From contig JAZDSV010000024.1 of assembly GCA_036784855.1 (NCBI GenBank), positions 1 through 64,000 of the forward strand: 64,000 nt of DNA, read 5' to 3'. Below the pieces are notes generated by a model. The model searched no databases. It saw only the letters and a program-made list of their open reading frames with translations, and was not told the DNA's origin. This DNA comes from Aphelidium insulamus. Lineage: Eukaryota > Aphelidiomycota > Aphelidea > Aphelidiaceae. Position 1 is the stretch's first letter. Each line of letters opens with the position of its first letter. The position numbers and the translations under genes are program-made. This document shows, piece by piece, positions 18,684-62,126 of this stretch.

Positions 18684-21600
18684 TTAGACGCAGTCGTCCT
18701 CACTGTTGTCTGACGCGATCGAAACGCGCGTAGGACTTTTTGGAGAAACTTCCACCATGACCGAGTTCTGCATGACTGGAAGAAAAGCAATCGCAGTCTT
18801 GCTGGACGCGAAGCTGCTGCGTCGCGTAGCTCCACCGCGCATCTTGACCACAAGCATGGCCAGAACAACGACCAGGCCAAATACGGCACCAATCAGCTCC
18901 ACTGTCATGACAATCGGTGCCGTTTCCACATCATAGCCATAGCCGCTGCTGCTGCTTGTCTGCCCCTCTTCCTCCTCTTCCTCATTCTGTTCCTCGGCCG
19001 GCTTATCATTGAATGATCGACGGCTTAGGTCGACTGATTGCGGAATGGGACTGGCGTCAGTGCCAACATTGGTGCTTGCACTTCCGTCATCTGAGGCACC
19101 ACCATCAGTCGGTTCAGCAGAGTCATCATCCACAGACAATGTTGCCGACTCATCGTCGGTGCTATCATCAACGGATGAAGTGACAACTGCATCACTGTCG
19201 TCATCGGTGGAGCTGCTTGTATCACTGCCGCTGTCGGACGATGGGGCGGCTGGCTCGATGGGAGTTGTTGGTGTTGCCACAATAGACACCTTTGCCAGAT
19301 AATTAAATAGAATTCCTGATACTTTATACGAATTCAACATACCTTTGTGGAGCTCACTTTCGTGCTCGAACTCTTCACACTGGTTTTGGCCGTAGCGCTA
19401 GATGCCTTCTTTGTGGTTGTCGATACTTTCACCGAGCTTGTGCTGGAAGCTTTGACCGATGTTGCCTTGACTGAGCTAGTGGCCTTGGCAGTGCTTGACG
19501 CTTTCACGGTTGTAGTTGCTTTAGCAGTACTGGATGCCTTGATGGAGCTGCTGGGTCGCAGAGAGGTTGTCGGCTTTGCAGTGCTAGTGGCTTTCGCCGT
19601 GCTACTTGGCTTGATCGTGCTTGTCGGTTTAACTGTGCTAGTCGGCTTTATTGTGCTAGTCGGCTTGACAGAGCTTGTCGGCTTGACAGAGCTTGTCGGC
19701 TTGACAGAGCTAGTAGGCTTGACAGAGCTAGTCGGCTTGACAGAGCTAGTCGGCTTGACAGAGCTAGTCGGCTTGACAGAGCTAGTCGGCTTGACCGTGC
19801 TTGCTGGCTTCACTAAGCTTGATGGCTTCACGGAGCTTGATGGTTTTACGGTAGTCGGTGCCACGACGCTGCTGCTGGGCCTGCTAGGTTTTACGGTAGT
19901 CGGTGCCACGACGCTGCTGCTGGGCCTGCTAGAACTTGATGGCTTCATCGAGGAGCTAGGCACAAGAGGCTGAGCAGTAGAAGAATATACCGGTGATTCC
20001 GACAAAGTAAATTCGGACATGTCTGATTGCACGGTGGTTGGGTCGAGCTCGCTTTGCGACATAGAGACTGAATTAATATCAGTCAAAGCGGGCAAATCAG
20101 TCTCGGAAACAGATGGAAGCGGCACAGTCTGCGATTGCGCAATGGAGGTTAGCTCCACGGATCCAGATGCGGATGACACGGACGAATCACTTGATGGAAC
20201 CGCAAAGTCAACTCGCCACATATCGTTCAGATAGGAGGAAGGTCCGGTCAAGCCACCAAAGAGAACCATAGATTTGCTATATGCCAGCGAAGCACCAGCA
20301 TACAAATTACGACCTTGCGGGTACGGTCCAGATGACGTTACGCCAAGGGTACCATACGTATTGGCCTCATTGGAGCCCACAATCCACGCCCATTGATTAA
20401 TGCTGTAATCAAAGATCCACATTTCGTTCAAGTTGGCATTATAAGTTGCCGCATTAATACCATAGCCACGACCTCCATACAGGCTGAGATAAGTTGTACC
20501 GTGCACCCTGGAGAATATCGCCGACGCCCTCGCACCTGGGGTGTATATGGCACTAAATACACCACTGGCGCCTCGTACTGGCAATTGATTTATCACAGCT
20601 CCGCCAGAGATCCATGTCCAGAAACCCGAGGAGAAGTCGTAGCTCCACAGATCGTTGAAGTATGCTACGGAAAGGTAAGTAGACTCTCTACCATGAGTCC
20701 TCAAACTAACCTGCTCCAGTGCCTGTCAAACCGCCAAACATGTACATGACAGCAGTCGTCGGATGAATCCAAGTGGAGTGCATGTTGCGACCCCCCGGCA
20801 GATTGGTACTGCTAGCAACACCCTTTGTACCAAAGACGCTGCTCACTGTGAGCGAGTTAACGCTACCGGCTAACCACGTCCACGCGTTGGTGTCCAGATT
20901 GAACTTCCACATATCGTTCAGGTCGGCTGAGAGAGCCATTATAGGTAACTTGACGTGATAGCAAATCAAGGACTTACCCGTCGTTCCATTAAGGTCAGAG
21001 CCGAATCCGCTCATCATTATCAGAAGATTTTGTGATGGATGCGCTACCATTGCAGCATTGCGACGGAATGAGGGGAAAACCGAGCTACTCTCCACATTAA
21101 GCGTAGGATTAACACCGGCACCACCACCCAGCCACGCCCACAAACCGCTGGTAGCATTGTAGCGCCACATATCGTTGTAACGACCTGCATTTGTCAATGT
21201 TTCAAAATTGAAGATTGAGCAACGTACCTCCAACAGCGCCACCAAACATGTAAAGATAATTATCACGTGGGTTGATCAAACATGCGGATCTCCCCAGCTG
21301 GCCGGGGAATGTGGTGCTGCTTTCCACGCCACGATTTCCAGTGCTGGCAGTATTTGACGGATTCTCAGGCAGCATGGTCCACTCATAAGTAGCCAAGTTG
21401 AAGCGCCAGAAATCTTTCAGGTAGTTCACTGCAACGGTTAGGCAGATACGACGAGCAGGCAATCATTGTACTTACGAGTAGCAGTGCCGTAGCCTTGACC
21501 TCCATAAAGATAGATCTTGTAATTCGTATCGCGAACAGTTACCACTAAGCACGGCATTATTCGTGCACCTGGATAGATGAATGATGACGGCACGCCAATC

Positions 21601-24600
21601 GCCCCTTTCGAACTGATAGCATTTGCAGATGAATTGCCCGAGATCCATGTGGCAGTAATGTTGATCATTGCCGATGGTGACGGTGATGGAACTTGCGAAC
21701 CAACTGATGTTGTCGTTGCCACGGTGGTCGATGATGCAGTTGATGGTGCGATGGTTGATGAAGCAACAATAACGCCAACAGTTGAGGTGGCCATAACAGT
21801 GCTTGTTGATGGAATTACCAAAGATGGCATTTGCGCACTTGAGCTGTCAATGGAGGAAGCCATTGCAGTACTTGTTGCTGGAATTGTCAGTGATGGCAAT
21901 TGTGCACTTGAGGTGTCAGTCGAGGCTTCCATTGCGCTGCTCGTTGATGGAATCGCCTGTGATGATGATTGCGCAGTTGATGAAGGCTGCATGACTGAAG
22001 CAATATCTGAACTGCTACTGACAGCAGTCAACGTCTGAGCATCAAAGCTGGATACATTGTCGTCCGTGACACTGGAAGTAAGAACTGCGGCAGAGCTCGC
22101 AATTAGACTTGAACTATCTGGTGCCCAAGATGACGAAAGAGCCGAACTGGGCAACAAACTGAAGATGCTGCTGCTATCAGCCATGGACGAGGACATAGGG
22201 GCCGACATGGACGGACTGGCAGGAATCTCAACCGAGAAAGAACTAGTAGCTTCAATAATTTCCGAGTACGAGCTTACATCCATTGTCAAAGACTGCGACG
22301 CGACAACAGTTGGCATCGACGAATCAGATACAGAGCTTGGGTACAATTCTGACACCAAAGTCTGCGAAGATTCCACTGCAGCCGATGACAGTGTCGATAT
22401 TATCAATGAGCTGGACTCCATAGCAGAGCTCGGGGATAGCGTCAACAAACCAAGCGACGATGATTCCATCAGAGCCGAACTGAGTGACGGCGTCGGTGCT
22501 CCAAGCGACGATGATTCCATCATAGACGACGTTGATGATGACGTCGGTGATAAAAGCGATGATGTTTCCATCAGAGCCGAACTATGTGACGGAGTAGGCG
22601 CTCCAAGCGATGCTGATTCCATTGCAGACGAAGTTGGTGACTCAGGCGGAATTTCAAAAGTTGAACTTATTCCGGCTGTTGTCGTGATTGCCACCGAGGA
22701 TGATAACTCTGAAGGTGTGGCAGAAGACGCAAATAAAGATGCTACCGAGGATGAAGCAAGTGACGAAGTGCTTGAAACCGCTTCAATAGACGATGCATCG
22801 TTTGTCGTAGAAATCACCGATGATGTAGCCACCACCGAGGCTGCCGAGCTAGATGATGCGGTAGTAGTGCCAACACCCGAAGAAGTCACCATCACCGATG
22901 AAGAAGAGCCAGCAGCATTTGACGTAGAAATTCCAAACTGTAACGATATTGCCGAGGAAGCCGCTGTCGTAGATACAGCAAGTGAAGATGCGGTGCTGGT
23001 TGCTACTGCGATGGCAAAATCCACTTTCCACATGTCGTTCATATAATTCGCTGTGCCAGTGAGCCCACCGAATATAATGCTCGACTTCTGGAACGCCAAT
23101 GGCACGGAACCGTACAAGTTGCGGCCTTGCGGGTACGGTCCAGTTGTTGTGACACCCTTTGTTCCATAAGTGTTGGCCTCATTCGAACCCACAATCCACG
23201 CCCATTGATTAACGCTGTAATCAAACATCCACATCTCGTTCAGGTTGGCATTGTAGGTGGCGGCATTGATTCCATAGCCACGACCACCGTACAAGCTCAG
23301 ATAGGTGGTGTTGAATACTCTCGAGAATATTGCTGACGCTCGGGCACCCGGAGTGTATGTGGCATCAAACACACCAGACGATCCATACGTTGGCAGCTGA
23401 TTGTTGGCACTACCACCGGAAATCCATGTCCAATGGCCAGATGAGAAATCATAGCTCCACATGTCATTAAAGTAGGCTGCAGTAGATCAATGATGGCAAT
23501 TAATTAAGTTAATACATACCAGTTCCAGTACCAGTGAGACCACCAAACATGTACAAGGCGTAACTTGTTGGGTGGATCCACGTGGTGTGCATGTTACGGC
23601 CACCAGGGAAATTGGCAGAGGTTGCAGCACCCTTGGTGTCAAAGACGCTGCTAACTGTCAACGAGCTGATGCTGCCGGCAAACCAGGTCCACGCATTGGT
23701 GTCCAGATTGAATTTCCACATGTCGTTCATATCGCCTTATTGATAAGTTGACTTATACGTATAAAATTCACTGTACCAGTTGTCCCGCTCAGGTCCGCAC
23801 CAAAGCCGCTCATTATAATCAATATGTTGAGCGTTGGATGAGCAACCATTGCGGCGTTACGGCGAGTGGACGGGAAGATTGTGCTACTCTCCGTGTTGAT
23901 TGTGGCCGTTGTGCTCGTGCCGCCGCCCAACCACGCCCAGTAACCGCTGGTCGGATTATATCTCCACATGTCATTGTATCGACCTACAATTTAATAATTG
24001 TTTCAGATGTTTGAAATATAGATATAGATACCTATACTAACGCCGCCAAACATGTAAAGGTAGTTGTCACGCGGGTTGATCAGACAAGAACTGCGGCCAA
24101 AGGCACCAGGGAATGTGGTGCTGCTTTCCACACCGCGTGTTCCAGTCACCGCCGTAGTTGTTGGGTTTTCTGCCAGCATGGTCCACTCGGAAGTGGCCAA
24201 GTTGTAACGCCAGAAGTCCTTTTGGTAGGCAACTACGGGCGCAATGTCAGTCAATAGCAGTGAAGCGCATTGTGCTTACGCGTGGCCGTGGAGTAACCCT
24301 GACCGCCATACATATAAATCTTGTAGTTGGTGTCCGATACAGTGATGGCCACACAGGGCATCACACGCCCACCAGGAAAGGTAGTTGTTGATGCTACGCC
24401 AATTGTTCCCTTTACGCTGGCAGAGTTTGCAGATGATGTTCCAGCAATCCATGTTGAAGAAACGTTGACGGAAGTCACAACGGTTGGCACAGCAATTGTG
24501 GATGACGACAATGATGATGAAGAAGAAACCGTAGATGACGCCACAGATGAAGAAGAGGCAACAGTTGACGGCGACGCGGACGACAAGGCAACGGTAGATG

Positions 24601-27479
24601 TAGAAGAGGCAACAGTTGACGGCGACGCGGACGACGAGGCAACGGTAGATGTTTCCATAGTGGATGTCACTACCAATACACTGCTGCTTGTTGTGGTTAC
24701 CATAGAGCTCTGCATCGCCGATAATGAAGACAATAAAACCGTAAGACCAGTATCGGTACTAGAACTTGTCAATGTCGTCGCCGCCGAGCTAGACAAAGTG
24801 TCTGATGTCGCTGATGGCACAGTAGACACCGTTGAAGATACACCAAAAACGCTGGAACTCGAGAACGTTGTCGTGGCTATATCAGCTGATGCGATGATAG
24901 ACACGGAGCTGCTGTCATCCAAAGAGCTGGAGCTAATTGCAGAAGCCGCAGTAGTTGTTGCAATCACATCAGTTGACGACGTCATGCTGCTGCCACCGAT
25001 AGTTGTGGTCACAGTGATGGTTGTGAAATCAGCAGTGCTCGCTGTGGTCGAAGTTTCGAGAACATCGGTGCCGGAGGCCAAAGTGGTTGCTGCTGATTCG
25101 CTTACCAAATAAGTACTGCTTGCACCAACCGGGAAAGAGCTGGATGAGGGCGAATCACTAATGACTACTGATGTCGACGGGGATGAGCTTGCCACCGCAA
25201 GTGACGACGGGGCCACCGAGCTGTCAGTTGAGCTGGTTACAATTGCTGACGACGATGGGGAAGTTGCAACCATTGATAATGAAGTGGAACTGGCGGCCAC
25301 AGAACTGTCAGTTAGGCTTGCTTCAATCGAAGAAGTAGTCGAAGTGGGCGCGACTACTGCAGCAGACGACGATGTGGAACTGGCGGCCACAAAGCTGTCA
25401 GCCGAGCTCGATGCGATTGCAGATGACGATGTGGATGATGATGTGGAACTGGCGGCCAAATAGCCGTCAGTTGAGCTTGCTTCAATCGAAGAGGTAGAGG
25501 CAGAGGGAGCAACTACTGCAGAAGACGATAAAGTGGAACTTGCGGTCACAGAACTGTCAGCAGAGCTCGACGCTAAAGTGGAACTTGCGGTCACAGAACT
25601 GTCAGCAGAGCTCAATATGTTTGCAGATGCGGCCGAGGTTGTCACTGCAATTTCGGTCGACGACAACGTGGCGCTAAGAGTCAAAGAAGTTGAGGCCACA
25701 GAGCTGTCGGTCGAGGTTGACAATACTGCAGCCGCGGACGAGGAAGTAACGACTACCGCAGCTGAGGATGATGTGGTGCTTTCGGCGACAGATGAAGATT
25801 CAGAAGAGGTGGCAATGGAGCTAGACACGATTGCAGACGTCGATGCGGTTGTCACTGCCACTGCAGCTGACGACGACGTGGAACTAGCAGCCGCCGATGA
25901 CGACGAAGAGCTCGTGGTCACTGCCACTGCAAAGTCCAACTTCCACATGTCATCCATGTAGTTTGCCGTGCCTGTTAGTCCTCCAAAGTATATCACTGAC
26001 TTCTGGAAGGCCAGCGGCGCGCAAACGTATAAGTTGCGACCTTGTGGGTACGGACCGGACGATGTGACACCCTTGGTGCCATAAGTATTGGCTTCATTGG
26101 ATCCCACAATCCACGCCCATTGATTAGTGCTATAGTCAAACATCCACATCTCGTTCAGGTTGGCGTTGTAAGTCGCAGAATTAACACCGTAACCGCGACC
26201 ACCATACAAACTCAAGTAAGTGGTGCCATAGAGCTTGGCAAAAATAGCCGAAGCTCTGGCACCCGGGGTGTAGGTGGCATCAAACACGCCACTAGCGCCA
26301 TAAGTTGGAACCTGATTGTTGGCTGTGCCACCCGAAATCCACTTCCAATAGCCGGATGTAAAATCATAGCTCCACATATCGTTGAAGTAGGCTAAATTAT
26401 AGTAAGATGTAAGAAAAGTTGTATAGCGTAGAATCAGTAATTTTAAATTACCTGTGCCCGTGCCAGTCAGACCGCCAAACAGATACATTGCGTAAGTGGT
26501 TGGATGAATCCACGTGGTGTGCATGTTGCGGCCACCGGGGAAATTGGATGCGGTTGCAGCGCCTTTGGTGTCGAATACGCTGCTCACCGTCAAGGAGTTC
26601 ACGCTGCCCGCGAACCAAGTCCACGCATTGGTGTCCAGATTGAATTTCCACATATCATTCATATCACCTAAGTATTATAGTTCATTACACTAGTTGAGCA
26701 CATAATATTTGTATACCAGTGTTGGTTCCGCCCAAATCAGCGCCAAAGCCGCTCATCATAATCAGGATGTTGAGGGTTGGATGGGCGACCATTGCGGAGT
26801 TACGGCGAGTGGAGGGAAAGATTGTGCTGCTCTCCGTGTTGATTGTTGGTGTAGTGCCCGTACCACCACCCAGCCACGACCAGTAGCCGCTGGTCGGGTT
26901 GTAGCGCCACATGTCGTTGTAGCGGGCTGAACGCATAAGGACATTATTATTGCAATACAGGCAGCAGTAACTTACGGCCTGAGACTCCGCCAAACATGTA
27001 CAGATAATTGTCACGAGGGTTGATTAGACACGAGCTTCGTCCGAAGGCACCGGGGAAGGTTGTGCTACTTTCCACGCCACGTGTTCCCGTAGCAGCCGTA
27101 TTTGACGGATTCTCAGTTAGCATAGTCCACTCGCTGGTGGCCACATTGTAGCGCCAAAAGTCCTTTTGATACGCGACTGTAGTAGCAAGTGTCAGTGGCG
27201 GAATCAGTACACATGGCTCTACGTACGCGTGGCAGTGGAGTAGCCCTGACCGCCATAGAGATAAACCTTGTAGTTGGTGTCCGAGACAGTGATAGCCAGA
27301 CAAGGCATCACGCGACCACCCATGTAGATGGTTGTCGATGGCACTCCGACTGTTCCTTTCACGCTGGCAGAGTTTGCAGCTGATGTGCCCGCTATCCACG
27401 TCGATGTCACATTGATGGACTGCGCGTATGTGCCGCCACTCAGTGCTGCAAGCAGCACCAGAATCGCGGATGAAAACAT
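18684..27479 (-). CDS. KelF: three-propeller Kelch/mucin membrane protein
   Basis: Starts at ATG 27479 with a signal peptide (MFSSAILVLLAALSGGTYAQ). Approximate exons: 27479-27227, 27176-26976, 26926-26717, 26667-26452, 26391-24280, 24231-24034, 23983-23779, 23734-23521, 23477-21477, 21427-21226, 21183-20980, 20925-20714, 20666-19343 and 19292-18684, about 2,700 residues. Three Kelch propellers follow one another, each opening with a TWIxG...YGGQGY blade, then KDFWRYNLAT, NDMWRYN, NDMWKFNLDTNAWTW, a NDMWSYDF blade, and further blades ending FGGLTG / MWKxDF. Long Ser/Thr-rich linkers separate them; the last contains KPTSSV repeats. The end has an acidic stretch, a transmembrane helix (LIGAVFGLVVVLAMLVV), a basic juxtamembrane KMRGGATRR and a tail ending SEDDCV. 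Probable O-glycosylated cell-surface adhesin or receptor. No catalytic motif is visible. The join from the second linker directly into a third propeller is read through in one frame. Confidence 0.85.
19617..19803 (-). repeat. 18-bp minisatellite coding KPTSSV units
   Basis: Repeated TTGACAGAGCTAGTCGGC units, read on the minus strand as Lys-Pro-Thr-Ser-Ser-Val, at least seven near-perfect and several degenerate copies. It lies in the mucin-like stalk of KelF, where copy number can change without frameshift. Confidence 0.9.
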
Positions 27480-27876: not shown

Positions 27877-30800
27877 TTAGACGCAGTCGTCCTCACTATT
27901 ATCTGATGAAATTGAGACACGTTTCGGACTTTTTGGAGAAACTTTAACCATGACCGAGTTCTGCATGACTGGACGATAAGCAATCGCAATCTTGCTGGAC
28001 GCGAAGCTGCTGCGTCGTGTAGCTCCACCGCGCATCTTGACCACCAACAAGACCAGTAGAACTACGAGGCACAATACGGCACCAATCAACTCCACTGTTA
28101 CAACTATTGGTGCTGTTTCCACATTATAGCCAAAATCACTGCCCAATTCTTCCAGTTCCTCAGATGGGCTGTCACTGCATGTCCGCCCCACTACCTCTTC
28201 CTCCTCTTCCTGTTCCTCGGATGGGTTGTCAGTGCTTGTCTGCTCCACTTCCTCTCCTGCTAGCAGCTCTTCTTCCTCAGATGGTTTGCCGCCATCATCA
28301 ATGCATGTCGGCTCCACTTCCTCTACAGCCTCTTCCTGGTTCTCACATGGTTTTTCGCCATCATCACAGTAAGTCAGCTCCACTTCCGCTTCCCTTTTCA
28401 CTGCTTCCTGTTTTACAGATGGTTTGTCATTATATGATCGGCGGCTAAGGGATACTAATTGTGGAGTGGGACTGACAGAAGCCTTTGCACTCGAGGTCTT
28501 AAATGTCGTCGTTAGTTTTGCTGTGGTCGTGACTTTCTTGGTGCTTGATGTAGCCTTAGCACTGGTGGTCGGCTTTGTGGAACTGGAAGTTTTGCGGGTT
28601 GTTGTGGCCTTTGTTGAGCTGGTTGATGTCTTGAGAGTAATCGTCGACTTTTTGGTGCTCGTTGGCTTCACGGAGCTAGAAGTCTTCCGAGTCGACGTTG
28701 CCTTTGCGGTGCTGGTCGAAGCCTTGCGAGTAGACGTGGCCTTTGTTGAGCTGGTCGGCTTGACGGAACTGGAAGTCTTCCGACTCGACGTGGCCTTTGT
28801 TGAGCTGGTCGGCTTGACGGAACTGGAAGTCTTGCGACTCGACGTGGCCTTTGTTGAGCTGGTCGGCTTGACGGAACTGGAAGTCTTGCGAGTAGACGTG
28901 GCCTTTGTGGTGCTGGTCGCCTTTACAGTTGTTTTAACAATGATAGTTGGATTGGTGCTAGTGACCGGTTTTGCTGTGCTTGAGGCTGTTTTTATCGTGC
29001 TTGTTGGCTTGACTGAGCTTAATTTCACTGAGCTAGTCTGCTTTACAGAGGTGCTGACTGTTGGCCGGATTGTTGTGGTCGCAAGTACTGTAGGCAAATT
29101 ATTGGCCACAGACGTCGCCATTGAGAGTGATTCTGATGAAACCAACGTAAAACCAGTCATTATGGCTTCAGACGTGACGGTCACAAATGTGGTCAAAGTT
29201 TCCGCGTCATTAATTGTAGTGGAAACAGATGCCGAAATGGCGGTAGCAACATTGCCCCCAATGCTGAAATCCAATTTCCACATGTCGTCCATGTAGTTTG
29301 CAGTGCCAGTCAACCCTCCAAAGAGAACGACCGACTTTTGGAATGCAAGCGCGGCACCAGAGTAAAGATTGCGGCCCTGCGGATAGAAATCTGGCGAGGT
29401 CACGCCCAGTGAACCATATGAGTTGGCCTCGTTTGAGCCCACAATCCACGCCCATTGATTAATGCTGTAATCAAGGAACCACATCTCGTTCAAGTTGGCG
29501 TTGTAGGTCGCAGAGTTAATTCCATACCCACGCCCACCATACAAGCTCAAGTAAGTGGTGCCGTACAGCTTGGAAAATATTGCAGTTGCGCGGGCGCCAG
29601 GGGTGTACGATGCGCTAAATATGCCACTCGATCCATACGTGGGCAAGTGGTTATTGGAGGTGCTGCCAGAGATCCACGTCCAGTACCCAGTTGAAAAGTC
29701 ATAGCTCCATAGATCGTTCATATAACCAGTGCCAGTGCCGATCAGACCGCCAAACATGTACATGACAGCTGTCGAGGGATCAATCCAGGTAGTGTGCATG
29801 TTGCGCCCTCCAGGGAAGCTGGAGCTACTGGCCACGCCTTTCGTGCCAAATACGCTGCTTACGGTCAATGAGTTGGCGCTACCGGCAAACCAGGTCCACG
29901 CATTTGTGTCCAAATTGAATTTCCACATGTCGTTCATGTCACCTAACAGCTGTCAAAAACTAGCAAATCAATATGCATTACGTACCGGTGGTCCCGCTAA
30001 AATCAGCACCAAAGCCGCTCATTATAACAAGAATGTTGAGCGTTGGATGAGCAACCATGGCAGCATTACGGCGAGTGGACGGAAAAATAGTGCTACTTTC
30101 CGCATTGATTGTTGGTGTCGTGCTCGTGCCACCACCAAGCCATGCCCAGTAGCCGCTGATTGGGTTGTAGCGCCACATGTCATTATATCGGGCTAGAGGA
30201 TGTTTAAGCCAACGGCATCAAGTTGTTACAAGTTGTTTCTGGTACTCACCTCCTGTGACACCACCAAACATGTAGAGATAATTATCACGAGGGTTGATGA
30301 GGCACGCCATGCGTCCTAGAGTGCCCGGGAAAGTACTGTTGCTTTCAATACCTCGGGTTCCCGTAACTGCAACATTCGTGGGATTTTCGGGCAGCATCGT
30401 CCACTCGCTAGTGGCCAGATTGTAGCGCCAGAAGTCCTTTTGGTAGCCAACTAGGAGAAGTTTTAAGTACATTGATTTGTGCGACATATTTGCTTACAGG
30501 TTGCAGTGGAGTAGCCCTGTCCACCATACACGTAAATCAGATAGTTGGTGTCCGAGACAGTGATGGCCACACAAGGCATCACCCGTCCACCAGGATAAAT
30601 GGCGGTCGATGGCACTCCAAAAGTTCCCTTGACGCTGACTGAATTGGCAGCCGATGTCCCCGCAATCCAAGTTGCCGAAACGTTCACAGACACAAATGTT
30701 CCAGCGGGAGTGGGTGACGGAGAGCTCAGTAGTGTGCTTGTATTTGTGGCAACGTCGGCGGCGGAAGTCGTCGGCGCCTCAATGCTAGAAGTTGGAACGA

Positions 30801-33800
30801 CGATACTCGAGACACTAGCACTACTAGAAGTAACAACGACCGAGGAACTAGTAGCACTGCTAGATTCACTTGAAGACGCAAAAGCTGACGAACTGGCGCC
30901 GGTGGACGAGGCCGCGGTAGGGATTGCGCTGCTTGACACAAGAAGAGAGCTCTGAATCGCCGACGAGGACAGCGCGCTAGTTGGCACCGCAGCAGAGGAA
31001 CTAATACTGCTTGACGCCATCACAGCCGAACTCGAGCTTGATACCTCATCCGCTGACGATGTCGAAATGTCAATAGAGGACTTTGTCACACCTGTTGATG
31101 ACGATGAAGCACGTGCGGAGGATGTCTCCATAAATAGTGATGATGACTCACCCGCACTACTTGATAATGTTGGAGCGGCGGCATACGGCGTTGATGCGTC
31201 AGTAGACGTTGCCATAATGGACGACGACATTGGTGAGGATGTTTCCAGCACAGCGGAAGATGTTTCCATCATGGCGGAGGATGTTTTTAGCACGGCGGAA
31301 GACGTTTCCATCATGGCGGAGGATGTTTCCAGCACGGCGGAAGACGTTTCCATCATGGCGGAGGAAGTTTCCATCACGGCGGAAGACGTTTCCACCATGG
31401 TGTAGGAAGTTTCCATCATGGACAAAAACTGTTCCGCCGAAGACGAAGGAGCAAGCGACGAAATGGCCCAAGTTGAATCAGATGACGACGATGTAAGAAC
31501 ATCGGAATGCGAGGTGGTCACCAAAATGTCGGACGACAAAGTCATCCCAACAGCGGATGTGCTCAATGCCACGTCTGTAAGCGACGCGTACGACGTGATA
31601 GTAAACATTTCAGACATCGAAGAAGAAGTGCTATCAAGCACAGAAAAGTCCAACTGCCACATGTCGTTCATGTAGCTTGTCGTTCCAGTAAACCCGCCAA
31701 ACAGTATCATCGATTTCTGAAACGCTAGTGGAGCACACACGTACAAATTACGACCTTGCGGATACGGTCCCGAAGATGTGACGCCCTTAGTTCCATAACT
31801 ATTGGCTTCATTAGCTCCCACAATCCAAGCCCATTGATTAGTGTTGTAATCAAACATCCACATCTCGTTCAAGTTGGCATTATACGTTGCGGCATTAATT
31901 CCATAGCCACGACCACCGTACAAGCTCAGGTAGGTGGTACCATACACTTTCGAGAATATTGCCGAGGCGCGGGCACCGGGGGTGTAAGTGGCATCAAACG
32001 CGCCAGAATAACCATACGTGGGCAACTGATTGTTGGCACTACCACCGGAAATCCATGTCCAAAAACCAGATGTGAAGTCATAACTCCACATGTCATTGAA
32101 GTAGGCTGCAGCATATCAAAGATAGCAATAACGATAGCTAATACATACCCGTTCCAGTGCCAGTCAGACCACCAAACATGTACATTGCGTATGTTGTTGG
32201 GTGGATCCATGTGGTATGCATGCTACGACCACCAGGATAATTGGCAGAGGTAGCAGCACCCTTGGTGTCAAAGACGCTGCTAACTGTCAACGAGCTGATG
32301 CTGCCGGCAAACCATGTCCACGCATTGGTATCCAGATTGAATTTCCACATGTCATTCAAGTCGCCTAACAATATTAAACATGGTGGCGAAGTTGCAGCGA
32401 AGCATACCTGTGGTAGAACCACCCGAATCAGCACCGAAACCGCTCATCATAATCAACATGTTGAGCGTTGGATGAGCAACCATTGCGGCGTTACGGCGAG
32501 TGGACGGGAAGATTGTGCTGCTCTCCGTGTTGATTGTGGCCGTTGTGCTCGTGCCGCCGCCCAACCACGCCCAGTAACCGCTGGTCGCATTATATCTCCA
32601 CATGTCATTATATCGACCTGAGCACAGTTAAGCATTAGGTATGTTTTGAAAGTGGCACTTACCCGAGTTTATGCCGCCAAATATGTAGAGATAGTTGTCG
32701 CGCGGGTTAATCAGACAAGCACTGCGGCCAAAAGCACCCGGGAACGTAGTGCTACTTTCCAAACCACGCGTTCCAGTAACTGCAGTAGTGGTTGGGTTTT
32801 CTGCCAGCATGGTCCACTCGCTGGTTGCCAAGTTGTAGCGCCAAAAGTCTTTTTGGTAGCCCACTGTGAGCGACATTGTCAGTAATTACTAGAAAATGGC
32901 GATATGCTTACGCGTAGCAGTGGAGTAACCCTGACCACCGTACAAATAGATCTTGTAGTTGGTGTCCGAGACAGTTATGGCCAGGCACGGCATAACGCGT
33001 CCACCCGGATAGATTGACGTTGATGCCACGCCAACTGTTCCTTTTACGCTGGCAGAGTTTGCCGATGAAGTGCCAGCAATCCACGTCCCAGTAACATTGA
33101 TAGTCGCTGATACAGATGAAAAACCAACAGTGGAGGAAGACGCAGAGGAAGAAACATCGATAGTTGATGACGGCATATAAGTTCCAAGAGTAGAACTGAT
33201 CAATAAGCTTGATGAAATGTCTGTCGTGGATGATGATAGTGCAACTGATACTGCAGTTGTCGATTCAGTTATGCTGGAGCTCACTGTCGCATCATCAAAG
33301 TCCGTTGACGTGCCAGTTGCTTCAATGATGATCGTAGTTGACAACTCCTCAGATCCAACGGCCGACAAAGAGCTTGAGCTATCCACAACATTTGTCACGT
33401 AGCCGTAGCTGGAAGTAGATTCCATCACTGCTGTTGTTAAAAGCACATCAGGCAAAGTAGAAGTTGCTGTGGCACTATATGCCGAGTCAACAACTGATGA
33501 TGTTGCAACCGCAGAGGACATGTCAGATGCACTCGATGTTGCTGCGCTTGCTAATCCAATCACGCTCGTGGTGCCAACGTCAGTTGAGCTTACTATGGAT
33601 GTATCAATCATGTTCGTGGTACTGAAGTCAGCCAAGCTGGCCACGGAAGTTATAAGCACGTTCGTGGTGCTGAAGTCTGTAGAGCTAGCCACAATCTCGG
33701 CGGTTGTTGTCAATGTGATTGCTACTACATCAGTTGACGATGTCGAACTTGCTGCAGATGACCAAGCCGTCGAGCTTACAATGTCTGGGGTTGCAAAATC

Positions 33801-35308
33801 CAATTTCCACATGTCGTTCATATAATTCGCGGTTCCCGTCAGGCCACCAAAAATAACACTCGACTTTTGAAACGCCATCGATGCACAACCATAAAGATTG
33901 CGGCCTTGCGGGTACGGTCCAGATGAAGTGACGCCCATGGTGCCATAGGTGTTCGCTTCATTCGAACCCACGATCCATGCCCACTGATTAGTAGTGTAAT
34001 CAAAGAACCACATCTCGTTCAAGTTGGCATTGTAGGTGGCGGCATTTATTCCATAGCCACGCCCACCATACAAACTCAGGTAGGTGGTACCGTATACCGT
34101 AGAGAATATTGCGGACGCGCGGGAACCCGGCGTAAATGTGGCATCAAATACGCCGCTGGAGCCATACACCGGGACGCGGTTATTTGCTGTACCTCCCGAA
34201 ATCCACGTCCAATAACCCGAAGAGAAATCATAACTCCACATATCGTTAAAGTAGGCTAGTAGTTCTGAGACATGTTGCAAAATTCAGTCAGGTAAGCTTA
34301 CGTGAGCCCGTGCCAGTAAGACCACCAAACAGATACATTAAATATGTTGTTGGGTGAATCCACGTGGTGTGCATGTTGCGGCCACCAGGAAAGTTGGATG
34401 CGGTTGCAGCGCCTTTGGTGTCGAATACGCTGCTCACGGTCAGCGAATTTACGCTGCCCGCAAACCAGGTCCAAGCATTTGTGTCCAAATTAAATCTCCA
34501 CATATCGTTCATATCGCCTACTGGTAAGTTAAATTTATACAATGGATATTCAATGTACCAGTTGCGCCGCTCAGATCAGCACCAAAGCCGCTCATCATGA
34601 TCAGAATATTGAGTGTTTGGTGGGCGACCATCGCGGCGTTACGGCGAGTGGAGGGAAAGATTGTGCTGCTCTCGGTGTTGATTGTTGGTGTTGTGCTTGT
34701 GCCGCCGCCCAGCCATGCCCAGTACCCACTTGTGGGGTTGTAGCGCCACATGTCATTGTAACGACCTATGACTTGAGAATTGCACAAGCTCGACGTTTCC
34801 CCATACCTCCGCTAACACCGCCAAACATGTACAGATAATTGTCACGAGGGTTGATCAGACAGGAACTGCGGCCAAAGGCGCCCGGAAACGTGGTGCTGCT
34901 TTCCGTACCACGTGTTCCAGTCACCGCAGTAGTTGTCGGGTTTTCGGCCAACATGGTCCACTCGGAAGTGGCCAGATTGTAGCGCCAAAAGTCTTTTTGG
35001 TAGCCAACTGTGGGTGACATTGTCAGTCATTACGAGTAAATGGCGATCTGCTTACGTGAGGCCGTAGAGTAACCCTGGCCGCCGTACATGTAGACTTTGT
35101 AGTTGGTGTCCGAGACAGTGATAGCCAGACACGGCATCACGCGTCCACCCGGATAGATCGTCGTCGACGGTACTCCGACTGTTCCTTTCACGCTCGGAGT
35201 GTTTGCGGCTGATGTGCCCGCTATCCACGTGGATGTCACATTGATGGACTGCGCGTTTGCGCCGCCACTCAGTGCTGCAAGCAGCAACAGAATCGCGGAT
35301 GAAAACAT
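27877..35308 (-). CDS. KelE: three-propeller Kelch/mucin membrane protein
   Basis: ATG at 35308 begins a signal peptide (MFSSAILLLLAALSGGANAQ) nearly identical to KelF. Approximate exons: 35308-35056, 35008-34808, 34767-34560, 34519-34304, 34256-32913, 32864-32661, 32620-32409, 32365-32150, 32106-30507, 30452-30251, 30192-29986 and 29943-27877, about 2,300 residues. Architecture: propeller, Ser/Thr linker, propeller, linker with METSSAV heptads, propeller, Lys/Thr/Ser-rich stalk, acidic region rich in Glu, transmembrane helix (LIGAVLCLVVLLVLLVV), KMRGGATRR and a tail ending SEDDCV. In the third propeller two blade exons are fused (GLIGTGTGYMNDLWSYDF), so one intron found in the other propellers is missing. 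Tail and membrane segment are of the same type as in KelF and KelD. Likely a surface adhesion or recognition protein; function not shown. Confidence 0.85.
28736..28897 (-). repeat. 54-bp minisatellite in the KelE stalk
   Basis: Three units starting at 28736, 28790 and 28844 with an exact 54-bp period. They encode 18-residue Ser/Thr/Lys units containing SSVKPTSSTKAT. Partial copies flank the block. Confidence 0.9.
31241..31404 (-). repeat. 21-bp minisatellite coding METSSAV heptads
   Basis: About eight 21-bp units of the type GTTTCCATCATGGCGGAGGA, read on the minus strand as seven-residue METSSAV/METSSAM units. It forms part of the linker between the second and third propellers of KelE. Confidence 0.9.
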
Positions 35309-39801: not shown

Positions 39802-40299
39802 CTGTGGTGTATTTGTTCCTGGAACAGTTGTCGGCAAGTGACTCCAAGTGGGTGCCATTTTAACTGTACATAACCTGTGCAACAATAAACACCCGAGATA
39901 CAACCCACCGCCACTGCGCTGAAATATTTGTTTTACTTGAGTTATCACCAGCCTGACATATGTAAAGCGAATGTATCAGAGTCAGTGGTAATTTTATTAT
40001 TCGACGCGTCTAAAGTGTATTTACATTTCATCTCTGAACTCCAGAGTCTGCTGTCATAAGGCCAGCATCGAACAAGAACATGAAATTAAATCCAATAACG
40101 GCAATTATAATGAGTCGGAATGACTTACTATGCAGTCTGACAACGCTGAGCACATTGACACTTGCAGCAATCCAGTAAGCAGCGATCGCCATGCGCGTTG
40201 CCTGATTGGCGCGATCTTACACCCAGCTGCGCTGCTGCAAGTCGGATGGCAGTCACAACAACTTACTTTCACCTAGCCAGCTATTCACTAGAAGTAGTA
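39802..40299. other. Divergent intergenic region, KelG and subtilisin
   Basis: Head-to-head spacing of about 500 bp between KelG and the subtilisin gene; the two may share a promoter region. No gene or repeat recognised. Confidence 0.5.
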
Positions 40300-42800: not shown

Positions 42801-42836
42801 GTATGTGTGCTGGATTATATGTAATTGTGTGTTCAA

Positions 42837-44446: not shown

Positions 44447-44495
<49 letters not shown>

Positions 44496-46133: not shown

Positions 46134-46302
46134 ATACACTTGCATTGCATGTTAATTTGTGTGGTTGTCGGTGTAATGCAGCTATGTTCTATGCATCATT
46201 TTTACTTGCGCATTACGCTCAAATCATCGCGCTAGCATTGAATTTCTTTTATTCCATTAATTTCATAAATTGTAGACTTACTCAGCAGAACTACCAATGC
46301 GA

Positions 46303-49300
46303 TTAGACGTTGTCGTCCTCACTGTTGTCTGACGCAACCGAGACACGCTTCGGGTTGTGCTTCACGTCAACCATGACGGCATTCTGCATCACGGGCTGAT
46401 AGGTAATAGCTGCTTTGCCGGACGTGAAACTACTGCGTCGGGTCGCACCACCGCGCATCTTGACCACAAGCATGGCCAAAACAACAACCAGGCCAAAGAC
46501 GGCACCAATCAACTCGACTGTCTTGACAATGGACGCGGTGTCCACCTCGTCATCATCATCATTCTCATTCTCGCCATTGTCATCATCGTCGCTCTCATTC
46601 TCGCCATTGTCATCATCATCGTCATTGCCTTCCTCGGCCATCTGCTCCTCCGCTACCTGCACAGCCGCACCATCGTTGAATGATCGGCGACTCAGGTCGA
46701 CTGATTGAGGAGTGGGACTGGCATCCACGTTGGCATCAGTGCTTGCACCGCCGTCATCATCAGCGGTCATGGTTGGGTCAACAGAGCCATCATCAGGCGT
46801 CACTGTCGGGTCGATAGAGCCATCGTTAACCGATGATGTCGCGGATGTGTCATCGCTACCGTCATCCACTGACGACGTTGGCGCAGTGGTGGCAAGCGTC
46901 GCCGAAGACGCCTTCGTGGAGGTTAACTTTGTAGAAGTGGTGCGTTTTGATGATGATGATGACGTGGACGCTACCTTTGTGGAACTTGCCTTCACACTGG
47001 AGGCCTTCGTGGAGGTCGGTTTAACAGTGGTTGTGACCTTCTTGGTGCTCGTAGTTGTCTTCACGGAGCCGGTGGGTTTGACGGAACTAGACGATTTGCG
47101 AGTAGTTGTAGCCTTGACCGAGGTGCTCGTAGTTGTCTTCACGGAGCCGGTGGGTTTGACGGAACTAGACGATTTGCGAGTAGTTGTAGCCTTGACCGAG
47201 CTGGAGACCTTGGTGCTGGTCGCTTTTGCAGTTGTTTTAGCGCTACTTGCTGGTTTGGTGCTAGTTGCAACTTTGGTTGGGCTGGCCGGTTTGGCAGTGC
47301 TTGATGCTGGCTTCGCCGTGCTTATCGGCTTCACCGAACTAATTGGCTTTACCGTGCTTGAGGGCTTCACAGTGCTTGAGGGCTTCACCGTACTTGTGGG
47401 CTTCACCGTGCTGGTTGGCTTTGCAGAGCTCGCAGGCTTTACTGTGCTGCTGGCTGGCTTCACAGAGCTTGTCGGTCTGATTGAGCTGGTTGGCTTCCTG
47501 GAGCTGGTCGGCTGAACCGAGCTTGAATAGTCCACCAAACTGCTTGGGGGAGGCATGATAGACATTGGAACATCCGTCGGCGGTAGATCTGTCGATGTTG
47601 GTTCTGGGCTAGGCTCAGTTGATGATGCCTCCACACTGAACTCGAGCGAAGACGTTGCCAAAAAGGTCTCGCTGGAGAAAGCCGTCGGTTCCACCAGGCT
47701 GAAACTGGTTGCTGTCACAATATCTGAAGAAATTGCCGGCGCAGCAGAACTGGCGGCAATGCTGCTACTGGAAGACGCTGTTGATGACGCAACACCAACG
47801 CTGAAATCCAGCTTCCACATATCGTCCATATAGTTTCCAGAGCCAGTCAATCCGCCAAAGAGAACGACCGATTTTTGAAATGCAAGGGCGGCACCAGAGT
47901 AAAGGTTGCGGCCCTGCGGATAGGAATCTGACGAGGTCACACCCAGTGAACCATATGAGTTGGCCTCATTTGAGCCCACAATCCACGACCATTGATTAAT
48001 GCTGTAATCAAAGAACCACATCTCGTTCAAGTTGGCATTGTAGGTCGCAGAGTTGATTCCGTAGCCACGACCACCATACAAGCTCAAGTAAGTGGTGCCG
48101 TACAGCTTGGAAAATATCGCAGTTGCACGGGCGCCAGGGGTGTGCGATGCGCTAAATACGCCACTCGATCCATACGTGGGCAAGTGGTTATTGGAGGTGC
48201 TGCCAGAGATCCACGTCCAGTACCCAGTTGAAAAGTCATAGCTCCATAGATCGTTCATATAACCAGTGCCAGTGCCGATCAGACCGCCAAACATGTACAT
48301 GACAGCTGTCGAGGGATCAATCCAGGTAGTGTGCATGTTGCGCCCTCCAGGGAAGCTGGAGCTACTGGCCACGCCTTTCGTGCCAAATACGCTGCTTACG
48401 GTCAATGAGTTGGCGCTACCGGCAAACCAGGTCCACGCATTTGTGTCCAAATTGAATTTCCACATGTCGTTCATGTCACCTAACAGCTGTCAAAAACTAG
48501 CAAATCAAAATAGCATTACGTACCGGTGGTCCCACTAAAATCAGCACCAAAGCCGCTCATTATAACAAGAATGTTGAGCGTTGGATGAGCAATCATGGCA
48601 GCATTACGGCGAGTGGACGGAAAAATACTGCTACTTTCCGCATTGATTGTTGGTGTCGTGCTCGTGCCACCACCCAGCCATGCCCAGTAGCCGCTGGTCG
48701 GGTTGTAGCGCCACATGTCATTATATCGGGCTAGAGGATGTTTAAGCCAACGGCATAAAGTTGTTACACTCTGGTACTCACCTCCTGTGACACCACCAAA
48801 CATGTAGAGATAATTATCACGAGGGTTGATGAGGCACGCCATGCGTCCTAGAGTGCCCGGGAAAGTACTATTGCTTTCAACACCTCGGGTTCCCGTAACT
48901 GCAACATTCGTGGGATTTTCGGGCAGCATCGTCCACTCGCTAGTGGCCAGATTGTAGCGCCAGAAGTCTTTTTGGTAGCCAACTAGGAGAGTTTAACCTA
49001 CATTGATTTGTGCGACATATTTGCTTACAGGTTGCAGTGGAGTAGCCTTGTCCACCATACACGTAAATCAGATAGTTGGTGTCCGAGACAGTGATGGCCA
49101 CACAGGGCATCACCCGTCCACCAGGATAGATGGCAGTGGATGGCACGCCATAAGTTCCCTTGACGCTGACTGAATTGGCAGCCGAAGTTCCCGCAATCCA
49201 AGTAGCCGAAACGTTCACAGACACGAATGTTCCAACGAGAGTGGGCGACGGAGAGCTCAGTACAGTGCTTGTACTTGTGGCAACTTCGGCGGCGGAAGTC

Positions 49301-51705
49301 GTCGGCGCCTCAATGCTAGAAGTTGGAACGACGATACTCGAGACACTAGCACTGCTAGAAGTTGCAACGACCGAGGAACTAGTAGCACTGCTAGAATCAC
49401 TTGAAGACGCAAAAGCTGACGAACTGGCGCCAGTGGACGAGGCCGCGGTAGAGGCCGCGCTGCTTGACACAACAGAAGAGCTAGGAATCGCCGACGAGGA
49501 CAACAGCGTGCTCGATGGTGCCGCAGCCGAGGAACTCACGATGCTGCTTGAAGCCAACAACGTCGAAGAAGACGCCGCTGACAATGTCGAGACGTCAATA
49601 GAGGACGTTATCACAACTGTTGATGAAGATGAATCAACTGCGGAGGAAGTCTCCAGGGACGACGTTGAAGACTCACCCGTACTACTTGAAGGTGTTGGAA
49701 CGATCGACGACGAAACGTCAGTAGACGTGGCCACAACGGATGATGATTGCGCTACCGATGAAGAAATGACGGAAGATGTAGCCATCAGAGACGACGACAG
49801 AACCGCCGATGACGACATGGCTGAAGGTGTTGCCATATCGGACGACGACTGTGCCGCGGATGAAGAGAAGGCTGAAGCAATATCGGACGACGACTGTGCC
49901 GCGGATGAAGAGATGGCTGAATATGTCTCCACTACGGACGAGGACTCTGCCGCCGATGACGACGCAGCAAACGAAGACGTAGCAGAGTCAGATGATGTTG
50001 ATGGAAGAGGAAGGTCCGAAGACGAAGTGGCTACCAAAATGTCCGACGACGATGGGATTCCTGCAACGGATGTGCTCAAGGCCACGTCCCAAGATGAAGC
50101 AGATGCGGATTCAGATGACGATGCCACTGCTGACGACGATGTAGCCGTGGACGGTGTCGCAAAGTCCAGCTTCCACATATCATCCATGTAATTCGCTGTC
50201 CCCGTCAATCCACCGAAAATGATTGTACTCTTCTGGAAAGCTAGACTGGCACATCCGTAAAGATTGCGGCCTTGAGGGAACGGTCCAGACGATGTGACAC
50301 CCTTTGTTCCATATGAGTTGGCCTCATTCGAGCCAACAATCCACGCCCATTGATTTATGCTGTAATCGAATACCCAGATTTCGTTCAGGTTGGCGTTATA
50401 TGTGGCAGAGTTGATTCCAAAGCCACGACCACCATACAAACTCAAGTAGCTGGTGCCGTACAGCTTGGCGAATATTGCGGAGGCTCGAGAACCCGGCGTG
50501 TACGTGCCATCAAACACACCACTGGAACCGTACACCGGGACACGGTTGCTCGCCGTTCCTCCCGAGATCCACGTCCAATACCCAGACGAAAGATCGTAGC
50601 TCCACATATCATTAAAGTAGGCTATAATATGTGTTTTAAAATATGGCCGCAGAATATATTCAAATATGCATACCTGTGCCCGTGCCAGTCAGACCACCAA
50701 ACATGTACATTGCATATGTTGTTGGGTGAATCCACGTGGTGTGCATGTTGCGGCCGCCAGGAAAGTTGGATGCGGTCGCAACGCCCTTGGTGTCGAATAC
50801 GCTGCTCACCGTCAAAGAGTTCACGCTGCCCGCGAACCAAGTCCACGAATTGGTGTCCAGATTGAATTTCCACATATCATTCATATCACCTAGTTATTAT
50901 GGTTTATAACACTCGTTGAGCACAAAATATTTGTATACCAGTGTTGGTTCCGCCCAAATCAGCGCCAAAGCCGCTCATCATAATCAGGATGTTAAGTGTT
51001 GGGTGGGCGACCATGGCCGCATTTCTGCGAGTGGAGGGAAAGATTGTGCTGCTCTCCGTGTTGATTGTAGGTGTAGTGCCCGTACCGCCGCCCAACCAAG
51101 CCCAGTAGCCGCTGGTCGGGTTGTAACGCCACATATCATTGTAGCGGGCTGCAAGCATTAGGATTTTGTTGCCTTTTATCATCTTGGAAGTTGTAACTTA
51201 CGGCCAGATACACCGCCAAACATGTACAGATAATTGTCATGTGGGTTGATCAGACAAGCACTGCGGCCAAAGGCACCGGGGAACGTGGTGCTACTTTCCA
51301 CACCACGTGTTCCCGTCACCGCAGTAGTTGTCGGGTTCTCGGCCAGCATGGTCCACTCGCTGGAGGCCAGGTTGTAGCTCCAAAAGTCCTTTTGGTAGCC
51401 AACTATATGTGTAGTCAGTGACTGTGACATCAGTACCCATTGCTCTACTTACGCGTGGCTGAGGAGTAACCCTGACCGCCGTACATATAGACTTTGTAGT
51501 TGGTGTCCGAGACAGTGATGGCCACGCACGGCATCACACGCCCACCCGGGTAGATGGTCGTTGATGGCACGCCGACTGTTCCCTTCACGCTCGGAGTGTT
51601 TGCCGATGAAGTGCCCGCAATCCACGTGGATGTCACATTGATGGACTGCGCGTTTGTGCCGCCACTCAGTGCTGCAAGCAGCACCAGAATTGCGGTAGAG
51701 TACAT
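46303..51705 (-). CDS. KelD: two-propeller Kelch/mucin membrane protein
   Basis: ATG at 51705 begins a signal peptide (MYSTAILVLLAALSGGTNAQ). Approximate exons: 51705-51454, 51402-51203, 51150-50941, 50889-50675, 50622-49032, 48983-48782, 48732-48525 and 48480-46303, about 1,680 residues. Order: propeller 1, Ser-rich linker, propeller 2 (with the same fused blade exon as KelE), Lys/Ser/Thr stalk with duplicated 78-bp unit, acidic Asp/Asn/Glu region, transmembrane helix (LIGAVFGLVVVLAMLVV), KMRGGATRR, tail ending SEDDNV. The part from the end of the Ser linker through propeller 2 is nearly identical, introns included, to the corresponding part of KelE, pointing to recent duplication or gene conversion. 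Probably a cell-surface protein as for the other members. Confidence 0.85.
47045..47200 (-). repeat. Perfect 78-bp duplication in the KelD stalk
   Basis: GTGCTCGTAGTTGTCTTCAC begins at 47045 and at 47123 and the 78-bp units look identical throughout. They encode 26-residue Ser/Thr/Lys units including RKSSSSVKPTGSVKTTTST. Confidence 0.93.
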
Positions 51706-55471: not shown

Positions 55472-55766
55472 ATTTAAGAGCTTTTTGGCGGAGCGGACGC
55501 GATGTTGACGCACTTTGTCTGCTTAACAACGGTATAACCCGCTGATTGATGGAAAAGCGCGGGCGGCGTCATTCTCGGCGGATTGGACGCGTCGAGTTCG
55601 GTCCAAGATGCCGGTCACTATATGACAAAAATGTAGTAACTAGATATGCTCCATATAGGTATAACCGTACTTACAATACCGCACGTACTTCTCATGGCTA
55701 ATTTTTAGTTACTGTTAGCCTGAACTTTAGAGATTTATTTAACGCTGCAACCTGCAAGAAGGCTTG

Positions 55767-58479: not shown

Positions 58480-58881
58480 TTGTGTCTGTTACTTTTAACA
58501 CGTTGCTGTTCTGGGACTAGCCGCTGTTTCGTCAGTCGCCAAGTTTGTGATTGGTTGCCATAGGTCGTGCAGCTATAAACACTGCCCGGCTTTCCATTAC
58601 AAGAACAATTCTGCAGCTCCTACATTTCCATTACAAGAACAATTCTGCAGCTCTTACATTCAAGCAAAGTTCCCTTCTATCTTGACTTATCGTTTCAATT
58701 GCACTATTACACTCTGATTATTGCAAAACATAATAGAGGCCTTTAATTGAGAAAGCAAGCCGGCTTTACTTGCGTAAATCAAACTTACAGCACCGCCATG
58801 ATCATGGCGAGGAGAATGTTTGAGTGTATGTCTGAATATGGCTCGGCGAAATCAGCCATGACAGCGTCGTGGTTGTGCTGA
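58480..58881. other. Intergenic region between KelB start and KelA stop
   Basis: KelB upstream region. Contains a two-copy 34-bp tandem repeat (58591-58658). Overlapping short ORFs here are not supported as genes. Confidence 0.5.
58591..58658. repeat. 34-bp tandem repeat, two copies
   Basis: TTTCCATTACAAGAACAATT begins at 58591 and again at 58625; the units differ at one visible base. Located about 110-180 bp upstream of the KelB start codon. Confidence 0.9.
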
Positions 58882-61800: not shown

Positions 61801-62126
61801 CGAAGATAGTTCACTGTTTAAACGATTAGCGTCCAGCATGCATGTACAGACAAACACATACGCGTGGCAGTCGCATATCCTTGACCGCCGTACAAATAAA
61901 GCTTGTAGTTGGAGTCCTGATTTGTCATGGCCATGCAAGGCCCGATGCGCCCACCCGGATAGATGGTGGTGGATGGGACGCCTGTAGTTCCTACAACACT
62001 GACTGCGTTGGCGGTGGATGTGCCCGAGATCCACGTCGAAGTAACATTGATTGCTTGAGGCGATACAACGTTGAGCAGGCACGCGGCCGTAATGAGGAAC
62101 CGCGTACCGATCGCTTTCTTGTTCAT
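58882..62126 (-). CDS. KelA: single-propeller Kelch/mucin membrane protein with repeat-bearing tail
   Basis: ATG 62126 with signal peptide (MNKKAIGTRFLITAACLLNV). Exons about 62126-61862, 61814-61614, 61573-61365, 61319-61106, 61053-60416 and 60358-58882, roughly 1,000 residues; introns are phase 1. Propeller resembles KelB (NYLRDFWVLRVST, SYDYAAGMWTW, TNYMGDMWKLDF). Ser/Thr stalk, GDTAALSD, transmembrane helix (FAQPAVIAALVAVVILAGIL), then KVHQRNARR and a much longer cytoplasmic tail than its sisters. The tail has SDYAQMPTQTSMA, a Gln-rich part and about six degenerate 12-13-residue units of the type NESNGYPQQYA (plus-strand 59000-59190). It lacks the Asp-Asp-x-Val end and finishes GDDANAASPN. 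Confidence 0.86.

Follow-up and report, generated by a model that had tools for sequence, protein, structure and literature searches.

What are the six related genes that stand in tandem on the minus strand of a contig of the aphelid Aphelidium insulamus, and what would this alga-killing parasitoid do with membrane proteins that carry up to three Kelch propellers on mucin-like stalks? The window, the whole 64,000-nucleotide stretch of DNA analyzed, comprises positions 1–64000 of contig JAZDSV010000024.1 in assembly GCA_036784855.1 (C91 in our numbering; the coordinates of related genes on C91 continue beyond the window). The six genes, A to F, lie between 18684 and 62126. An earlier note, made from the window sequence, had read them as an expandable array of receptors with variable heads and conserved tails, possibly for adhesion or self/non-self recognition. 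The genes were compared with one another and with the genome (17.95 Mb in 169 contigs). In the reading that we favor, and to which we give an even chance, A–F would be type-I membrane receptors or co-receptors with a role at the host surface. They would belong to a large family of Kelch receptor kinases and pseudokinases and form its kinase-less branch, some members of which have several heads.

A propeller template of 426 amino acids was built by hand from gene C and a spliced-alignment script was run on twelve regions. All six spliced models are open from ATG to stop. They are listed with KelG, a diverged gene between the two blocks; type I and type II tails denote two classes of membrane helix plus cytoplasmic tail.

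Gene A, 62126–58882, minus strand: one propeller, 1002 aa, Ser/Thr stalk, transmembrane helix (TM), 274-aa type II tail.
Gene A propeller exons, 62054–61862, 61813–61613, 61571–61365, 61318–61103 and 61053–60590, minus strand: from the spliced alignment.
Gene B, 58479–55767, minus strand: one propeller (58404–56925), 820 aa, stalk, TM, 129-aa type II tail.
Gene C, 55471–52198, minus strand: one propeller (55408–53926), 1022 aa, 470-aa stalk, TM, 86-aa type II tail.
Gene D, 51705–46303, minus strand: two propellers (51645–50161; 49221–47803), 1685 aa, stalks of 313 and 428 aa, TM, 52-aa type I tail.
Gene E, 35308–27877, minus strand: three propellers (35248–33795; 33104–31645; 30690–29266), 2309 aa, stalks of 230, 318 and 390 aa, TM, 53-aa type I tail.
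Gene F, 27479–18684, minus strand: three propellers (27419–25931; 24472–23016; 21665–20204), 2722 aa, stalks of 486, 450 and 416 aa, TM, 53-aa type I tail.
KelG, about 39860–38028, minus strand: diverged propeller (39709–38343), C-terminal hydrophobic stretch, no long tail; the start is not fixed.

Each of the proteins A–F begins with a hydrophobic core (best 9-residue hydropathy 2.6–3.3) and has one strongly hydrophobic segment near the C terminus (19-residue mean 2.8–3.2); signal peptides and membrane helices were called by hydropathy alone. The stalks are 220–486 residues long with 40–57% Ser plus Thr, and 52–274 residues follow the helix. The open models confirm six minus-strand paralogues with a signal-peptide-like start, stalk, single helix and tail, as the earlier note had described them. 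The eleven propellers that it counted correspond to eleven full-length template alignments, and their distribution of 3, 3, 2, 1, 1 and 1 falls to F, E, D, C, B and A, respectively. A tandem membrane-receptor layout with several propellers on mucin-like stalks is therefore supported. The 3′-most intron was picked among 4 (A), 5 (B) and 12 (F) open alternatives, so these junctions are uncertain. Stalk DNA holds tandem repeats, two of them perfect (47044–47200 and 19842–19932), and stalk length is thus likely to vary between isolates. All six proteins carry residues beyond the helix, which sets them apart from the layout of a GPI-anchored adhesin. KelG, unlike A–F, stops right after its hydrophobic stretch. 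Its propeller is a distant match to the template (score 470 vs 1772–2297 for the eleven others), in keeping with the claim that KelG is a diverged relative, but its standing as an intact gene is doubtful. At 39860–39560 the signal-peptide frame differs from the first-blade frame as assembled, so KelG may be a pseudogene or contain an assembly base error.

The eleven propellers are 425–427 residues long, stop-free, and aligned over the full length of the template, one of them starting at residue 2. Their introns are short (41–60 bases) and the window, with a GC content of 52.6%, is eukaryotic in character. All 42 propeller introns have GT-AG borders and all 42 are in phase 1. Nine propellers are encoded by five exons and two, D2 and E3, by four, both lacking the fourth intron. 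Inspection by eye places the intron sites between GG (or SG) and the next [KN]-D-[FM]-W motif, with R for K in A and B; phase 1 introns at the repeat borders make the inner propeller exons symmetric modules. Six blades per unit were counted by eye, and the first strand (xINVTSTWI) probably closes the last blade. The Pfam family PF24681 exceeds its cut-off in the D frame (52.3 vs 50 bits), with matches down to 6.2e-14, and PF13418 exceeds its cut-off in six of the seven window frames scanned. Among proteins of known structure, muskelin matches best by sequence (4.1e-11). The repeat pattern of GG and spaced W/Y residues and the Pfam matches together predict that the heads of A–F are Kelch β-propellers.

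The multi-headed proteins depend on the junctions between successive propellers, which were located as open frames.

D1–D2 joining frame, 48943–50688, minus strand: last exon of D1, stalk and first blade exon of D2.
E1–E2 joining frame, 32892–34283, minus strand: last exon of E1, stalk and first blade exon of E2.
E2–E3 joining frame, 30466–32115, minus strand: last exon of E2, stalk and first blade exon of E3.
F1–F2 joining frame, 24254–26674, minus strand: last exons of F1, stalk and first blade exon of F2.
F2–F3 joining frame, 21441–23486, minus strand: last exon of F2, stalk and first blade exon of F3.

All five inner junctions of D, E and F lie within uninterrupted frames of 464–807 codons. 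No signal core precedes the five inner propellers, where the 9-residue hydropathy maximum is 0.8–1.7 compared to 2.6–3.3 at the six N termini. Inner propellers that continue the frame of the preceding stalk and have no signal core of their own are not separate genes, and at the level of sequence the possibility raised by the earlier note, that each propeller is its own gene, fails. A first-blade query against the genome gave 93 matches (150 of 168 candidates scored), which were filtered for a start at residue 1–5, a reach of at least 61 and a frame of more than 300 codons. The five window junctions and one match on contig C119 passed. In the frame that was read, the C119 case has its own hydrophobic start; the filter may miss diverged arrays.

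The array extends past the window. Last-exon copies 51–84% identical continue along C91 up to 150.7 kb, and a 41% copy lies at 173.5 kb; the earlier note had placed the six genes correctly. Five of these relatives, K1, K2, K3, K5 and K6, consist of a Kelch ectodomain, stalk and membrane helix followed by a kinase-like domain (last-exon identity to gene C of 51–84% for K1, K2, K3 and K5 and 41% for K6). Across the genome, 88 kinase-like matches were found, of which the 76 of at least about 160 aa were kept and 12 shorter ones left out; three of the 76 contain internal stops. The earlier note had suggested a genome-wide copy count, which yields further Kelch copies beyond the window and also what the note missed: at least 53 of the 76 kinase-like matches have a Kelch exon less than 2.5 kb upstream on the same strand. 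Among the 23 others, 20 agree with Ephrin_rec_like repeats in both contig and frame length. None of the 88 matches lies within C91:1–64000, and Pfam reported no kinase domain in the seven window frames scanned (six of A, C, D and E, and KelG). A–F therefore have no kinase domain and are not receptor kinases.

The kinase-like domain of the relatives is itself unusual. PF00069 is matched by all seven proteins scanned, from C91, C129, C64 and C119 and including K1 and K5, and in all seven the match ends at position 190–198 of the 263-position model, which we place immediately behind helix F. In all 12 cases examined, a stop codon closes the frame 0–22 codons beyond the match. A missed splice or extra exon is possible in single cases, and K5 has a donor-like site near the end. 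Fourteen of the 76 domains were read by eye; the Lys is present in 14, the HxD Asp in 12 and the DFG Asp in three (K5, R1 and R2). With an incomplete C-lobe and the DFG Asp mostly missing, the domains are predicted not to qualify as active kinases.

The membrane anchors of A–C resemble those of two kinase-bearing genes, K1 and K2. Helix plus flanks of each gene was compared with those of kinase-bearing genes and with 1000 shuffles (36 comparisons in all). The shuffles reached the score of A, B and C against K1 in 0 of 1000 cases each, and against K2 in 1, 0 and 2. For D, E and F the counts are 7, 13 and 5 of 1000 against K1 and 0, 3 and 3 against K2. The simplest reading of the sequences would be that A–F have lost the kinase-like domain.

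Two further receptors stand on the same contig, at C91:122827–126036 and 127429–130533 on the plus strand (L014 and L015), each with a TM and a kinase-like domain in which HRD and DFG are present; L015 has 11 Ephrin_rec_like stretches in Pfam, and both match that family in the genome search. Kelch exons with no kinase-like match occur at C91:104812–110936, 166301–167733, 201917–202955 and 210300–211553. Those at 104.8–110.9 kb and 201.9 kb end within a hydrophobic stretch or a little beyond it, like KelG, and are possibly GPI- or tail-anchored. More Kelch arrays, many with kinase-like domains, are at C129:404–520 kb, C150:181–206 kb and C86:340–410 kb and on C98, C101, C105, C117 and C160.

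Sequence identity among the eleven heads is 70–97%, compared to 34–65% for stalks in the nine pairs compared. Whole-propeller averages were calculated for 55 pairs; dN/dS is 0.04–0.13 in the 46 pairs with measurable dS, and in the other nine dS is saturated and gives no ratio. Only five of the 55 pairs have a dS below 1, and D2/E3 is the most recent of them (0.12). Most heads diverged long ago and purifying selection acts on them, although a few selected sites could hide in the averages. The variable heads of the earlier note are thus not borne out. Its conserved tails are of two types, not one. Type I membrane-plus-tail (D/E/F) has three matches in the genome and is 73–84% identical among the genes; type II (A/B/C) has four, the fourth being K4 at C91:111.6 kb outside the window, and is 42–56% identical among A, B and C. 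Despite the two types, the C termini of B, C, D, E and F all read D-D-x-V. A PDZ partner for this C terminus was considered and dropped, PDZ domains not being found in the genome. The tails of A, B, C and K4 have a conserved [DE]Y[AV]Q[MV]PT[QE][TS]S stretch, a possible sorting or phosphorylation site.

Changes in head number and in head–tail pairing are recorded in the genes. The D1-stalk-D2 segment is colinear with E2-stalk-E3 over 3.9 kb at 82% identity, so that gene E appears to be D plus one head, or D to be E minus one. This duplication or loss upholds the claim that propeller number is expandable. The head of gene C is 94.4% identical to F1, and the DNA match begins inside the exon of the signal peptide and stops precisely where the propeller ends, whereas the tail of gene C is type II, like those of A, B and K4. 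An F1-like head on a type II tail indicates that heads and anchors have been exchanged. The propeller tree groups A, B and K4 (100/100), C with F1 (100/97), D2 with E3 (99/100), and K5 with D1, E1, C, F1, E2 and F2 (80/87). This tree, in which nine of 15 inner forks are open, does not divide the genes into those with and those without the kinase-like domain.

Relatives in other organisms were sought with the gene C head among about 5.8 billion proteins, of which the 7999 candidates sharing the most words were scored, so relatives may be missed. There were 124 relatives; among the 120 listed, those with a named organism are bacterial, and two come from EukProt (P0084, a Paraphelidium transcriptome, and P0018). 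Both have Kelch and kinase matches. A search with the kinase region of R2 returned one protein at ≤1e-10 among 1219 candidates, P0241 from a metagenome, which has Kelch repeats, a helix recognized by eye and a kinase-like domain whose match stops at position 192. P0084 and P0241 resemble the aphelid K genes in having Kelch repeats, a single TM by eye and a PF00069 match that ends at 192–193 of 263, although P0084 could be a cut transcript. P0018 also shows a Kelch ectodomain and a single TM by eye, but its kinase is a full-length one of the tyrosine type (to 259 of 263). P0084 and P0018 start with a signal peptide by eye, and P0241 starts inside the propeller. All three carry the kinase-like domain that genes A–F lack, and the head-stalk-head layout of D/E/F was not seen by eye in any of them.

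The elongation factor EF2 of the genome has environmental sequences as its first five matches (82–85%), followed by Paraphelidium, Paraphysoderma and Amoeboaphelidium at 80–82% and chytrids at about 79–80%. In a quick EF2 tree of the query with 44 of the 120 listed matches, 31 fungal rows form a clade (100) that excludes the genome; the genome stands next to environmental rows, with the aphelid rows nearby. The word "fungal" in the earlier note is not supported in its strict sense. NCBI taxonomy lists Aphelidium under Fungi as Aphelidiomycota, and others treat aphelids as the sister group of Fungi (abstract of PMC10608142).

Kelch propellers and receptor kinases are known kinds of protein; what may be new is that Kelch heads occur together with stalks of mucin type and a shortened kinase-like module, and that some forms have no kinase and as many as three heads. 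Aphelid receptor-like protein kinases were reportedly treated by Mikhailov et al. in Current Biology in 2022. Those kinases probably belong to the same wider family or overlap with it, and because of that report the wider family may be partly described already. PMC10608142 credits Mikhailov et al. 2022 with showing that aphelids and fungi differ in their receptor-like protein kinases. The main texts of PMC10608142, PMC10406608 and PMC6299283 do not contain the word "kelch". No such family was found in the literature searched, which covered Kelch proteins in aphelids, chytrids, early-diverging lineages and protists and in connection with mucins and adhesins, receptor kinases in Holomycota, and kinases in Paraphelidium and aphelids.

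Four other genes of the window were identified by Pfam.

8194–9135, plus strand: PRP4-like WD40 protein.
16328–18535, plus strand: Rua1_C protein with a weak PHD match.
35776–37608, minus strand: protein kinase.
44637–46133, plus strand: inositol polyphosphate kinase.

A 118-base unit is repeated 3.3 times at 97% in 15366–15750, and Rfam and tRNA scans of the window found nothing.

Known systems offer three points of comparison. Plant receptor-like proteins work with receptor-like kinases. The plant and aphelid families are alike in having kinase-bearing and kinase-less receptors with the same type of ectodomain, tandem arrays and exchangeable ectodomains; they differ in the ectodomains themselves, presumably in origin, and in the kinase-like domain, which in the aphelid is shorter and usually has no DFG Asp. 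Judged from sequence, A–F have the layout of receptor-like proteins, with a kind of ectodomain common to kinase-bearing paralogues, a TM and a short tail. Fungal mucin-like adhesins and flocculins have a signal peptide, binding head and repeated Ser/Thr stalk like A–F, but they are usually GPI-anchored to the wall and have a non-Kelch head, whereas A–F have a TM and cytoplasmic tail. Attractin/LZTR1, muskelin and KLHDC proteins are similar in their Kelch blades; muskelin and the KLHDC proteins, however, work inside the cell, and attractin carries additional domains of the CUB, EGF and C-type lectin kinds. Neither "fungal adhesin" nor "receptor kinase" was accepted as a name for A–F.

The chief rival to a receptor or co-receptor is pure adhesion, in which the kinase-less genes would encode a stalked, multi-headed glue for attaching zoospore or cyst to the alga, with no part in signaling. 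No catalytic or known signaling domain is seen in the tails of A–F, long Ser/Thr stalks with internal tandem repeats fit an adhesin, up to three heads of the same type in series suggest avidity, and attachment is a known step for aphelids (PMC3975115). A mere anchor, however, need not be conserved as the D/E/F helix and tail are, above the stalks and well above the same region of A/B/C. In addition, 53 of 83 typed Kelch clusters lie upstream of kinase-like domains (minimum counts from the listed matches, most window Kelch matches being omitted from the typed list). We regard pure adhesion as quite possible but not probable. A locus with diversifying heads for self/non-self recognition, which the earlier note had proposed, or for recognition in mating would suit the tandem paralogues, the chimeric gene C and the variable head number, but the excess of amino acid change expected in such heads is not found: their identity is high, dN/dS is low and most duplications are old by dS. 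This role finds no support and is highly unlikely. Cell-surface enzymes, with propellers acting as glycan oxidases or epimerases of the galactose oxidase or NanM type, are suggested by the source name N-acetylneuraminic acid mutarotase on 14 of the 120 listed relatives and by the name of PF13418, galactose oxidase central domain. These names may rest on the repeat itself, and NANM (PF24996) was not reported at E 0.001 in any of the seven window frames scanned; we give this explanation very little credence. Multi-propeller proteins as read-through artifacts of single-propeller genes are scarcely credible against five open junctions that have no inner signal core.

Several points also weigh against the receptor or co-receptor reading. 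With dN/dS this low, the heads show no trace of an arms race. An AlphaFold2 model of blades 4–6 only, half a propeller, from the 11-window-frame alignment reached a pLDDT of 32.6, so the propeller fold is read from sequence. Thirty of the 83 typed Kelch clusters, several window genes included, have no kinase-like match downstream; kinase-less Kelch proteins are thus common and need not partner kinases. The anchors of A, B and C match K3 weakly (45, 36 and 8 of 1000 shuffles) and do not match K5 (113–623 of 1000) or a C129 gene, and the shuffle counts of D/E/F, taken over 36 comparisons, leave a common origin of their anchor unsure. A YxxPhi motif is present in the tails of five of the six genes, but it is a weak motif that occurs by chance. 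The co-receptor partnership is an analogy, the host-contact role derives from lifestyle, and the reading as a whole draws on sequence.

If A–F are receptors or co-receptors, they would stand on the surface of the zoospore or cyst. Stalks rich in Ser/Thr, and probably O-glycosylated, would hold between one and three propellers of six blades at a distance from the cell. The ligand of the propeller faces would lie on a surface, the likeliest candidate being an algal-wall glycan or glycoprotein, and more heads would give more reach and avidity. Paralogues that share this type of head and carry a kinase or pseudokinase would receive the signal sideways; alternatively, it would use the short conserved tails, for example through endocytosis. 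Head number and head/tail pairing would shift by duplication and recombination. Aphelid zoospores attach to algae, encyst and inject, according to PMC3975115 and PMC8657485, and this life cycle makes host contact a plausible site of action. More tentatively, and as less likely than not, aphelids may have evolved their own pattern recognition by receptor kinases and receptor proteins, with some 76 Kelch or Ephrin_rec-like receptors whose kinase-like module, mostly a pseudokinase, stops about three quarters of the way through the domain in all cases examined, and with kinase-less members, bearing one to three heads on telescoping mucin stalks, serving as long-range antennae at host contact.

A large receptor repertoire in the sister group of Fungi would provide concrete genes for asking how an alga-killing parasitoid recognizes its host. 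It also opens two further questions: did the lineage leading to Fungi lose receptors of this sort, and how does a kinase-like domain function when its last part, and in most cases the DFG Asp, is missing? The D/E pair illustrates how head number changes, and gene C illustrates how a head becomes joined to another anchor.

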